This document shows positions 36,197 to 50,652 of a DNA stretch of 64,000 nt, one piece after another; the first letter of the stretch is position 1, and each line of letters begins with the position of its first letter. The DNA is from Chloroflexota bacterium. Its GTDB lineage: Bacteria > Chloroflexota > Anaerolineae > Anaerolineales > Anaerolineaceae. The position numbers and the translations under genes are program-made. Under the pieces are notes generated by a model. It saw nothing but the letters and a program-made list of their open reading frames with translations, searched no databases and was not told the origin of the DNA. The stretch spans positions 1-64,000 of the forward strand of contig JAKQJC010000031.1 of NCBI GenBank assembly GCA_029561345.1, read 5' to 3'.

Positions 36197-36600
36197 AGTT
36201 ATCCCCAATTATCCACACTGTGGATAACTATTAGAAAACTGTGGATAACTGTGGGTAAATGTGGAAAACCTACCGCGTTTATCCACATTTTATTTAAACG
36301 CCCTTACCAATCAGCCCCAAATACGGGAGACAAATTCGAATCCCCGCCAGATATGGGGGTATGGCGATTTACCCCCAAAAAAGCCCTGAATCTTATTCGA
36401 ATCCTGTGGATAATTTATCCACAGCCACTTGGGCTCAAAGCAAGGAGTAAAACCCTATATATCAGGCAAAAAGATGCGAGTCATCCCGTATCTGGTGGTG
36501 GAAGGCATTTATCCACATATCCACAGACTCTACGAATACGACGATTCCATATATCTGTTATGAGGATAAAAATAATCCACACCCTGTTAACATGACAAAG
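36197..36600. other. oriC: Putative chromosomal replication origin (oriC)
   Basis: Seven perfect DnaA boxes TTATCCACA: plus strand at 36209, 36279, 36415, 36509; minus at 36219, 36240, 36405. Single-mismatch boxes lie at 36199, 36250, 36260, 36517 and 36573. AT-rich segments near 36284-36300 and 36548-36576 could unwind. No ORF of note occupies it. Six GANTC sites fall at 36338, 36388, 36399, 36478, 36526 and 36543. dnaN (16 kb) and parS (13 kb) are on the same side. Against it: gene orientation does not diverge cleanly here and dnaA is absent. Confidence 0.8.
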
Positions 36601-46553: not shown

Positions 46554-47621
46554 ATGCGTTTAGGAATCATCGGCTTACCCCAATCAGGCAAAACAACCCT
46601 GTTTAATGCCCTCACCCGCTCCACCCAGCCCACCGGCCCGACCGGCAAAATTGAAATTCACACCGGTGTGGTGGATGTGCCGGATCCGCGCGTGGATAAA
46701 CTGTCGGCCATGTTCAAACCGAAGAAGACCATCTACGCCAAGGTCACCTATGCCGACATCGCCGGCCTGGACGGTTCGGCGGGCAAGACGGGCATTTCGG
46801 GCACCCTGCTCAACCAGCTCACCCAGATGGACGGCTTCATCCACGTTATCCGCACCTTCGAAGATGAAAACGTGGCGGCCCCCAGCGGCAGCGTGAACCC
46901 GACCCGCGACCTGGCTACCATGGACAGCGAATTTATCATTAATGACCTGATTGCCGTGGAACGCAAGCTGGAACGCCTGCGCGAAGAGCGCAAAAAAGGC
47001 GCCGGGCGCGATAAAGGCCAGATTGAACGGGAAGTGGTGCTCTTTGAGCGCATCGAGGCGGCCCTGAACGAAGAAACCCCGCTGCGCGACCTGGCGATCA
47101 ACGCCGAAGAAGAAAAGCTGCTTTCGGGCTTTGGCTTCCTCAGCCGCAAACCCGTGTTGATTGTCTTCAACCAGTCGGAAGGCCAGAGCATGCCCCAAAT
47201 TCCCTACCCCCACCAGCACAGTCAGATGGTGGCCCTGCAGGGCAAGCTGGAGGCGGAAATCGCACAGCTTCCGCCAGAAGATGCGCGCATGTTCCTGGAA
47301 GAATACGGCATCGAAGAACCCAGCCTCAACCGCATGATCCGCCTTTCGTATGACCTGCTGGGCCTGCAATCGTTCTTCACCGTCGGGCCTGACGAAGTGC
47401 GCGCCTGGACGGTGCGCCGCGGCGCCCTGGCCCCCGAGGCGGCGGGAGAAATTCACACCGATCTGCAGAAGGGCTTTATCCGCGCCGAAGTGGTGGCCTA
47501 CAACGACCTGATCAGCCTGGGCGGCATGACCGAGGCGCGCAGCAAAGGCAAGCTGCGCCTGGAAGGCAAGGAATATCCCGTCCTTGACGGCGATATTCTC
47601 AATATCCGCTTCAACATTTGA
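46554..47621 (+). CDS. ychF: Ribosome-binding ATPase YchF (OLA1/Obg-like)
   Basis: 355 residues. P-loop LPQSGKTTL, switch region DIAGLDGSAGK, and the G4-equivalent NQSE instead of NKxD, which explains ATP rather than GTP preference. A coiled-coil insertion (about 130-170) and the C-terminal TGS domain (about 265-355) are present. It binds the 70S ribosome and is linked to stress responses. GAAGAG precedes ATG. Confidence 0.93.
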   Translation: MRLGIIGLPQSGKTTLFNALTRSTQPTGPTGKIEIHTGVVDVPDPRVDKLSAMFKPKKTIYAKVTYADIAGLDGSAGKTGISGTLLNQLTQMDGFIHVIRTFEDENVAAPSGSVNPTRDLATMDSEFIINDLIAVERKLERLREERKKGAGRDKGQIEREVVLFERIEAALNEETPLRDLAINAEEEKLLSGFGFLSRKPVLIVFNQSEGQSMPQIPYPHQHSQMVALQGKLEAEIAQLPPEDARMFLEEYGIEEPSLNRMIRLSYDLLGLQSFFTVGPDEVRAWTVRRGALAPEAAGEIHTDLQKGFIRAEVVAYNDLISLGGMTEARSKGKLRLEGKEYPVLDGDILNIRFNI

Positions 47622-47647: not shown

Positions 47648-47731
47648 CCCTTGCCAAAGCCGTAGGGCTATGATATGATAAGGTTGTTGATCGCCAGGAT
47701 GCCCCCCTCATCCTGGCGATCAACGCTTTAA
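47648..47731 (+). ncRNA. Promoter-hairpin unit, copy 1
   Basis: TTGCCA (47651-47656), 17-bp spacer, TATGAT (47674-47679), then 6 nt later a 16-bp perfect stem (47686-47701 with 47709-47724) with loop CCCCCCT, followed by GCTTTAA. The stem begins at the predicted transcription start. Shares layout and sequence with copies 2 and 3. Confidence 0.55.
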
Positions 47732-47849
47732 CAGCCGGAATGCCTGGCGCGGGGGTGAATGACGGGGAGAAACCTGAACCGGGGAACGGCTGGGGCAATC
47801 CTTCACCATACGAAAACGATCAAATTGCTCTGAAATTGCTTCCCGTTTA

Positions 47850-47933
47850 CCCTTGATTAAATCATCAGCCCATGATAATATAAGGACGTTGATCGCCAGG
47901 ATGCCCCCCTCATCCTGGCGATCAACGCTTTAA
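47850..47933 (+). ncRNA. Promoter-hairpin unit, copy 2
   Basis: TTGATT (47853-47858), 17-bp spacer, TAATAT (47876-47881), then a 16-bp perfect stem (47888-47903 with 47911-47926), same loop and tail as copy 1. The HD-domain gene starts 61 nt after the unit, so this could also serve as its promoter and 5' hairpin. Confidence 0.55.
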
Positions 47934-47994
47934 CCCCCAGCAGCACTATCGCGGCATTTTTGATCTGACAGGTAAAACAACACCCAGGCGGAAC

Positions 47995-48630
47995 ATGACG
48001 AACCCATTGCCCGGCATACCCGGTCTCGCGGAAGCGGTTTGCTTGATGAATGAGGCGGAACGGCGCAATCCCGGCCCCTGGCATGCGCATTCAATCTTTG
48101 TTGCCAGAGCCGCTGAATTAATTGCCTCCCATCACCCCAACCTTGACCCTTCAACAGCCTATATCCTGGGCTATTTGCATGATATTGGCCGGCGCGAAGG
48201 CGTCACCGATTTGCGCCACACGCTGGATGGGTACCGTTATTTATCCGGCCTGGGCTTCCCCGGCGCGGCGCGGATATGCCGCACCCATTCCTTTCCGGTC
48301 AAGCACGTTTTGGCCGGATCAGGTCAGTGGGACTGTTCCCCTGAAGAGGTGAACGGGGTGCAAAAATTTCTGGACGGGGTCGAATACACCGATTACGACC
48401 GGCTGATTCAGCTTTGCGATGCGCTGGCCCTGCCCACCGGGTTCTGCCCGGTGGAAAAGCGCCTGCTGGATGTGGCCCTGAGGCGGGGCGTCAACGCATA
48501 TTCGGTTGAAAAATGGCAGGCATTTATCAAGATACGCGAAGATTTCGACAGGGCGATCGGCAGGCCGGTCTACAGTCTTTTACCCGGGGTGGTTGAAAAC
48601 ACCTTTGGTTTTGATCCGGCTGGATTTTAG
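47995..48630 (+). CDS. HD domain-containing protein
   Basis: 211 residues. Metal-ligand pattern: His in GPWHAHSIFVARAA, the HD pair in GYLHDIGRREG, His in CRTHSFP, and Asp in IQLCDALAL. It is a likely metal-dependent phosphohydrolase of unknown substrate (nucleotide or cyclic nucleotide). It sits between promoter-hairpin units 2 and 3. GGCGGA precedes the ATG. Confidence 0.85.
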   Translation: MTNPLPGIPGLAEAVCLMNEAERRNPGPWHAHSIFVARAAELIASHHPNLDPSTAYILGYLHDIGRREGVTDLRHTLDGYRYLSGLGFPGAARICRTHSFPVKHVLAGSGQWDCSPEEVNGVQKFLDGVEYTDYDRLIQLCDALALPTGFCPVEKRLLDVALRRGVNAYSVEKWQAFIKIREDFDRAIGRPVYSLLPGVVENTFGFDPAGF

Positions 48631-48657
48631 AAAGAGGTGAAAATTCTCCGGCAAAAA

Positions 48658-48740
48658 CCCTTGATTAATTTTCATCAGAGTGATAATATAGGGGTGTTGG
48701 CCGCCAGGATGCCCCCCTCATCCTGGCGGTTAACGTTTAA
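48658..48740 (+). ncRNA. Promoter-hairpin unit, copy 3 (diverged)
   Basis: TTGATT (48661-48666), 17-bp spacer, TAATAT (48684-48689), then a 16-bp stem (48696-48711 with 48719-48734) with the same loop. Relative to copies 1 and 2, one pair changed T-A to C-G on both arms and two changed to G-U, so RNA pairing is kept though the DNA palindrome is broken. No gene follows within 500 bp. Confidence 0.55.
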
Positions 48741-48771
48741 TATCCACAGGGTTATCCACAGGTGTGGATAA
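48740..48771. promoter_or_regulatory. Mini-cluster of DnaA boxes
   Basis: ATATCCACA (48740), TTATCCACA (48752) and, on the minus strand, TGTGGATAA (48763), directly after hairpin unit 3. Too few boxes for an origin; a DnaA-titration or regulatory site is possible. Confidence 0.5.
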
Positions 48772-49989: not shown

Positions 49990-50652
49990 ATGACAAAAAA
50001 AATCCCCTCCGAATATCTCTTTTGCGAATGCACCTCGCCAGCCTGCCGGCTGCGTTTTCCGGCCGAACGGCTGGACCCGCGCGCCAACCTTTGCCCGCGC
50101 TGCGGGGCTCCCACCCGCCTGGAAGATGCCCTGAATGCCGGCGGACATGTGTCCATGGCGGTGGCGCGCCTGCCCGGGCCGCCCCTCGAAGCCCTGCTGG
50201 ATAACATCCGCAGCACTTTCAACGTGGGCGCCATGTTCCGCACCGCCGATGGCGCCGGACTGCGCCGCCTGCACCTGTGCGGCATCACCCCCTTGCCCGA
50301 TCACCCGCGCCTGGCGCGCACGGCCCTGGGCGCCGAGAGCGCGATGGAATGGCAGAGCAGCCCCAATGCGCTGGAAACCGCGCGAGGGCTGAAGGCCGCC
50401 GGCATGCGTCTTTGGGCGCTGGAAGGCGGCGAGCGCGCCGAGCCGCTGTTTGAAGCGGCCCTGGCGCTGACCGGTCAGCCGGTGGTGCTGGTGGTGGGAA
50501 ATGAATTGGCCGGGGTGGACCCGGCCTTGCTGGATGAATGTGAGCGCGTGCTGGCCATTCCCATGCAGGGGATGAAGCGCTCGTTGAATGTGGCGGTGGC
50601 GTTTGGCGTGGCGGTGTATTACCTGCGCGGCCTGCCTCAGCGCGGCGCGTAG
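49990..50652 (+). CDS. TrmH/SpoU family RNA methyltransferase with N-terminal zinc ribbon
   Basis: 220 residues. SPOUT motif 1 is LLDNIRSTFNVGAMFRTAD, motif 2 VVLVVGNELAGVD, and motif 3 IPMQGMKRSLNVAVAFGV, which form the knotted AdoMet site. It probably 2'-O-methylates tRNA or rRNA. The first ~45 residues carry CECTSPAC and CPRCG, a probable zinc ribbon that is not part of usual TrmH proteins. It overlaps the convergent epimerase gene by 16 bp. Confidence 0.88.
   Translation: MTKKIPSEYLFCECTSPACRLRFPAERLDPRANLCPRCGAPTRLEDALNAGGHVSMAVARLPGPPLEALLDNIRSTFNVGAMFRTADGAGLRRLHLCGITPLPDHPRLARTALGAESAMEWQSSPNALETARGLKAAGMRLWALEGGERAEPLFEAALALTGQPVVLVVGNELAGVDPALLDECERVLAIPMQGMKRSLNVAVAFGVAVYYLRGLPQRGA

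Follow-up and report, generated by a model that had tools for sequence, protein, structure and literature searches.

Experiments have shown that C-rich loops can act on G tracts close to start codons. The described cases include sX13 (PMC3771888) and B11 (PMC12395582, PMC10470900), as well as LhrC (PMC4132741) and RepG (PMC8295292). Here, we analyzed a stretch of 64,000 nucleotides from a bacterium of the order Anaerolineales (Chloroflexota), hereafter the window, in which three short promoter-plus-hairpin units share a C-rich loop. We did not find a description of such an RNA in the literature that we searched. In an Rfam search, the hairpin had no match at gathering level; what came up at high E values were chance hits to eukaryotic or viral hairpins, and a 6C match was absent in cmscan of copy 1 (laxest filters, E up to 10). 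Based on comparison across genomes, and with no expression data, the three units very likely belong to a so far undescribed family of tiny RNA genes rather than to a local repeat. On the same basis, we have high confidence that they represent structured RNAs under selection, each with a promoter of its own.

Three promoter-hairpin units in the window

All three units are on the forward (+) strand. Copy 1 (47651-47731) comprises a promoter-like pair at 47651..47679 (TTGCCA at 47651-47656, a 17-nt spacer, and TATGAT at 47674-47679; a sequence reading backed by family-wide statistics), a predicted hairpin RNA at 47686..47724, and the tail GCTTTAA at 47725..47731. The hairpin has a 16-bp stem, the first base of which is the predicted +1, and the loop CCCCCCT, and it matches the model with 79.6 bits; the tail is kept across the family and has the form of a weak terminator tail. 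Copy 2 (47853-47933) has TTGATT at 47853-47858 and TAATAT at 47876-47881 with a 17-nt spacer (promoter, 47853..47881), followed by a hairpin at 47888..47926 that is identical to copy 1 at 39 of 39 nt and, by sequence reading, the tail GCTTTAA at 47927..47933. Copy 3 (48661-48740) is separated from copy 2 by an HD-domain gene. Its promoter (48661..48689) has TTGATT at 48661-48666, a 17-nt spacer, and TAATAT at 48684-48689; its hairpin is at 48696..48734, and its tail, GTTTAA, is read at 48735..48740. The distance from the -10 hexamer to the stem is 6 nt in all three copies, with the first stem base at 47686, 47888, and 48696, respectively.

A sequence-only reading of the window had described promoter pairs with 17-bp spacing followed after 6 nt by a 16-bp stem with a common C-rich loop, gave the same three stem starts, and placed two copies before and one copy after the HD-domain gene. 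These claims held; transcription and the 5' ends are inferred in the absence of RNA data. The promoter coordinates that it reported (47648, 47850, and 48658) correspond to the first base of a common CCCTTG block, 3 nt ahead of the hexamers. It had also claimed that copy 3 differs by one two-sided change and two changes to G-U with pairing kept, and this held as well: compared to copies 1 and 2, three stem pairs are changed (T-A to C-G, A-T to G-T, and G-C to G-T), all of which are still paired. Copies 1, 2, and 3 fold at -29.5, -29.5, and -28.8 kcal/mol (z of -11.1, -11.1, and -6.7), and in the folding test equal stability was reached in 0 of 200 shuffles for each copy. A DNA similarity search of the window's genome matched the three local copies only.

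Within the ychF coding sequence, 14 nt (47090-47103) exactly match a portion of the 3' arm region of copies 1 and 2. We rejected an origin of the stem arms in neighboring genes, given that the match of copies 1 and 2 to ychF (13 to 14 nt) is isolated and the distribution of matches is as in controls. Elsewhere in the window, at 36209-36517, seven perfect DnaA boxes (TTATCCACA) occur in approximately 310 bp of intergenic DNA, which makes this region an oriC candidate; 0.19 perfect boxes are expected in the whole window.

Distribution of the family in Anaerolineales

We built a first covariance model from the three copies in the window and, with a laxer cutoff (E up to 1), detected matches in 129 of the 147 genomes of the window's taxonomic family. 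A second model, built from 34 sequences, matched 238 of 301 Anaerolineales genomes and 96 of 113 genera, with 1 to 11 matches per Anaerolineales genome; the match counts include some opposite-strand hits on an already counted palindrome. The window's genome has eight copies: three in the window, two in C29, and one each in C52, C59, and C32. When a model was searched across the phylum, it matched 24 of 25 members of the order and 2 of 276 genomes outside it. Both outside matches (L084 and L085) are weak, and we regard them as chance hairpins because the loop is missing, as it also is in the rejected in-order matches L258, L391, L395, L397, and L400. Genuine copies were not found in the genomes checked of genus g10 and families f3, f10, and f15. 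A pattern scan of genome contigs returned at least 120 stretches, with titles that are nearly all Anaerolineales or unspecified Chloroflexota plus a few odd bins. Comparison shows a gene family and its distribution.

Hairpins at L120, L121, L135, and L206 are in bins titled Herpetosiphon, Rhodobacteraceae, and Chloroflexus, and these are probably mis-binned or mis-named Anaerolineales contigs. Locus L282 (genome G240) has a CRISPR-like array with the repeat GTTTCAATCCCCTCGATAGGGGCTTTTTGATTCTTAC.

A covarying stem and a near-fixed loop

In the 34-sequence alignment, 98.7% of cells are paired, two-sided changes are present at 10 of 16 pairs, and the covariation score exceeds all 500 shuffles and every slid version. 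This covariation, shown by comparison, supports the sequence-only claim of a selected RNA structure over a protein-binding palindrome. That reading had called for a covariance-model search and would have been refuted by homologues whose arms diverge without keeping pairing; the search was run, and the arms of the homologues diverge yet pairing stays, so the refuting outcome is absent. The near-invariant loop, the order-wide spread, and the phage copies were not visible to it.

The homologues include 161 distinct cores. In genuine weak or distant matches, the stem sequence is wholly replaceable, as is its length, and the loop is kept. The family loop is GCCCCCCUC; almost every copy has precisely six C followed by U. 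All 38 copies from loci of the taxonomic family carry TGCCCCCCTCA; this listing was fetched by searching TGCCCCCCTCA itself, and because loci fetched by pattern are unable to test loop invariance, we read the weakest model matches instead. The exact GCCCCCCTC is present in 17 of these 23 matches, two are one-base variants (C7 in L392 and TGTCCCCCTCA in L390), and the remaining four resemble chance hairpins. The loop also varies in L245 (C5) and L254 (TGCCCCCTTCA), and in L257 the T-A pair adjoining the loop-closing G-C is replaced by C-G. Because the covariance model favors a CCCCCCU loop, some bias is left in this estimate of loop invariance. The two pairs next to the loop vary hardly at all, roughly as little as the loop itself, and the rest of the stem is free. 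The family thus meets a criterion for C-rich-loop antisense sRNAs, namely that the exposed C-rich loop is kept while the stem varies. There is one hairpin, with its own promoter, per unit.

Promoters and transcript ends

A simple single-sequence promoter scan of 1.6 kb put copy 1 alone above threshold, with approximately one hit expected by chance; given this weak result, the promoter claim rests on comparison across copies. Promoter scores of at least 9/12 were found for 97 of 185 bacterial copies (13 when shuffled) and for 28 of 32 viral copies (1 when shuffled). Across the 217 distinct copies, the promoter-like pair mostly ends 6 to 7 nt 5' of the stem and has a spacer of 16 to 18. The criterion of an own promoter in fixed register is met by sequence comparison only, and transcription from it is inferred.

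A TTTAA-like tail follows the hairpin in 162 of 217 copies and T5 does so in 26 of 217. True U-tracts (T4-T7) are present 3' of the hairpin in families f2, f5, f7, f8, and f13, and the window's family has only the TTTAA-like tail. The earlier claim that the tail is not a strong terminator is therefore true for the window's family and false for distant families. Given the U-tract in distant families, the hairpin is probably the whole RNA and its own terminator, with RNA ends and termination inferred; leaky termination in the window's own family is a possibility.

Conserved genomic neighborhoods

The hairpin is convergent behind recN at 18 loci and behind a cysteine-desulfurase-like gene at 22 loci. 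At 15 loci it is upstream of a gene for a SpoU-type methyltransferase, which is also present in the window at 49990-50652. Because these neighborhoods are conserved and many are convergent, many copies are not leaders of the next gene. We rejected a 5' stabilizing leader, since many conserved sites lack an immediately following gene on the same strand, and a mobile repeat (MITE or REP), since there are 1 to 11 matches per genome in conserved gene neighborhoods. Both had been offered as alternatives by the sequence-only reading; the comparison did not support them, and its reading as tiny hairpin RNAs is supported.

Two further rivals place the function in the DNA or in cis. A cis device would be a promoter with an immediate terminator and no RNA acting in trans, its role being that of a transcription sink, an insulator, or a convergent terminator. 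The many convergent loci close behind recN or the cysteine-desulfurase-like gene and the U-tract in distant families speak for it. Against it, the loop is the most conserved part although terminators need no fixed loop, tandem copies have their own promoters, and the tail is weak in the window's family; we consider this reading unlikely. A DNA-level element (a protein-binding palindrome, a packaging or replication signal, or a mobile repeat) could draw on the position of phage copies between terminase and portal genes and on an inverted pair of DnaA boxes at 48752-48771, 12 nt behind the tail of copy 3. It is opposed by the G-U pairs, the asymmetric loop, the promoter-like sequence in fixed register, the low copy number, and the conserved neighborhoods, and we regard it as very unlikely, with the caveat that terminal repeats and target duplications were not systematically sought.

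Phage copies and a LexA-type box

Small RNA genes of this family are also present in phages, as comparison shows. The model matched 31 IMG/VR contigs, and the neighboring genes mark at least one of these (L230) as apparent host chromosome. In one related phage group, TerS, TerL, small ORFs, the hairpin, and the portal gene follow one another on a single strand. Promoters of the viral copies lie close to consensus (TTGACA). In 19 of these 32 copies, the spacer contains GAAC-N4-GTTC at one constant position, with no more than one mismatch; among bacterial copies, the box is present in 1 of 185, and at another position. The viral copies are not mutually independent. Host lexA promoters share this box: it occurs in 28 of 31 order genomes (loci L342 and L348-L377), usually located between TTGAC and the -10 hexamer, and the chance expectation is 0.0024 per 220 nt. 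GAAC-N4-GTTC is likely the SOS box of Anaerolineales. Because the box in the viral spacer resembles that of host lexA, the phage copies are probably LexA-controlled; LexA binding itself is inferred.

On phage contigs L210, L225, L226, and L229, the loop TGCCCCCCTCA recurs in a second hairpin that has an unrelated stem (GTGGCGGGCGACT...) and a promoter without the LexA-type box.

Search for targets in hosts and phages

Words complementary to the loop were not enriched upstream of host genes: in the window's genome, 6-mers occurred upstream of 10 of 348 genes versus 7 antisense, and in a control genus without the hairpin they occurred upstream of 13 of 355 versus 0 antisense. AGGGGGG was found upstream of 0 of 348 and 1 of 360 host genes, and 0 of 13 non-hairpin GAGGGGGGCA sites were at an RBS. 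Exact 10-mer sites beyond the hairpins, searched in the whole genome, are all within or antisense to open frames. Looking for rRNA as a conserved target, we found no common complement in 23S or the adjoining part of 16S in three genomes. The hosts thus gave no indication of a broad RBS target. The host target tests covered 400-kb stretches, not the whole genome. Because host gene starts came from a simple script, these tests may have overlooked a few targets. A search of 61 order genomes for Hfq detected none.

In phages, A followed by 6 to 10 G is present shortly before the TerS start in 23 of 23 close TerS relatives, and seven bases of this tract are exactly complementary to the loop CCCCCCU. 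The hairpin is 4 to 7 kb downstream on 17 of the 19 G-tract contigs long enough to show it. More distant TerS relatives, several of them on short contigs, had neither the G tract nor the hairpin. Next to the G tract is a conserved CCCGCGAAATT block, and more G runs occur approximately 100 nt upstream; a cos function therefore stays a live alternative for the tract. Because the TerS phages are closely related, the co-occurrence of G tract and hairpin is confounded by descent, which explains part of it. The phage TerS leader is thus a possible, inferred target of the hairpin RNA.

A rival reading that remains possible casts the hairpin as a ligand or decoy RNA, bound by a protein that recognizes G-CCCCCCU-C atop a stem, with host and phage copies titrating this protein. 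The near-invariance of the loop and two loop-proximal pairs with other stem positions free, the count of exactly six C plus U, and the lack of host RBS enrichment favor it. Against it, a partner protein was not identified, there are no CsrB-type repeated sites within one RNA, and seven bases of the phage leader match base pairing exactly.

Proposed mechanism and comparison with described RNAs

Our working hypothesis is that the family acts by loop pairing as a C-rich-loop antisense sRNA, and we judge the evidence for and against it to be evenly balanced. The mechanism, target, and repression are inferred without expression data. The host upstream regions lack complement enrichment, the loop-proximal pairs are more fixed than pairing alone requires, the phage G tract may be part of cos, and the TerS phages share descent, all of which count against loop pairing. 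Under this hypothesis, a sigma-70-type promoter would start the RNA at the first base of the hairpin, and an RNA of approximately 45 to 50 nt, consisting of the hairpin and a short U/A tail, would result, with the hairpin also ending transcription. The stem would be a mere scaffold presenting the near-invariant loop G-CCCCCCU-C, which, by analogy, would pair in trans with A/G tracts (AGGGGGG) near the start codon of a few mRNAs without Hfq. Several copies per genome may give dose or separate control. Phages of these bacteria have copies of this RNA gene behind a LexA-type promoter, and in one group of them a fitting G tract precedes the TerS gene.

A bolder reading, which we offer only as a possibility, is that host and phage share one RNA signal: the loop of an order-wide tiny sRNA would read A/G tracts, and phages would have adopted the RNA under SOS control and would apply it, in the manner of RepG, to the variable G tract that precedes their own terminase gene; copies in the host could then act on the phage packaging operon as well. 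If the units are indeed small RNA genes, Chloroflexota have an order-wide small-RNA family in an order in which no Hfq gene was found in 61 genomes. The sRNA gene would be near the smallest possible, with promoter, hairpin scaffold, active loop, and terminator within approximately 80 bp, and the phage copies together with the G-tract leader provide a concrete host-phage pairing hypothesis.

The nearest systems in mechanism are C-rich-loop sRNAs, none of which matches as a family: the units described here have a single hairpin, come from another phylum, and lack an Rfam match. Among described systems, the alpha-r14 or cuckoo RNAs of alphaproteobacteria resemble the family in having an ultraconserved C-rich unpaired motif on very different stems (PMC10746234). 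Their motif is CCUCCUCCC and they have three hairpins per RNA, whereas the motif here is CCCCCCU on one hairpin in another phylum; the criterion for this group is therefore unmet. The 6C RNA of Actinobacteria (Rfam) shares the C6 loop, and B11 shares a C-rich loop inside a terminator hairpin, which is the seed in B11 (PMC12395582); unlike here, both have several hairpins per RNA, and there was no Rfam 6C match. LhrC1-5 of Listeria are likewise multicopy, with C-rich motifs including one in the terminator loop, and pair with a G-rich RBS (PMC4132741), but they use UCCC motifs, and their RNA is larger and has at least two hairpins. The sX13 RNA of Xanthomonas is similar in its C-rich loops, G-rich motifs near start codons, and dispensability of Hfq (PMC3771888), but it is 115 nt long with three hairpins. 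RepG (HPnc5490) of Helicobacter pylori differs in that there is no Rfam match in common, the target here is inferred, and RepG is not known to have phage copies. The likeness to RepG is that its C-rich loop acts on a G repeat of variable length in an mRNA leader (PMC8295292): the RepG loop is UCCCCCU (PMC3771888), and the phage TerS leaders described here have G6 to G10.
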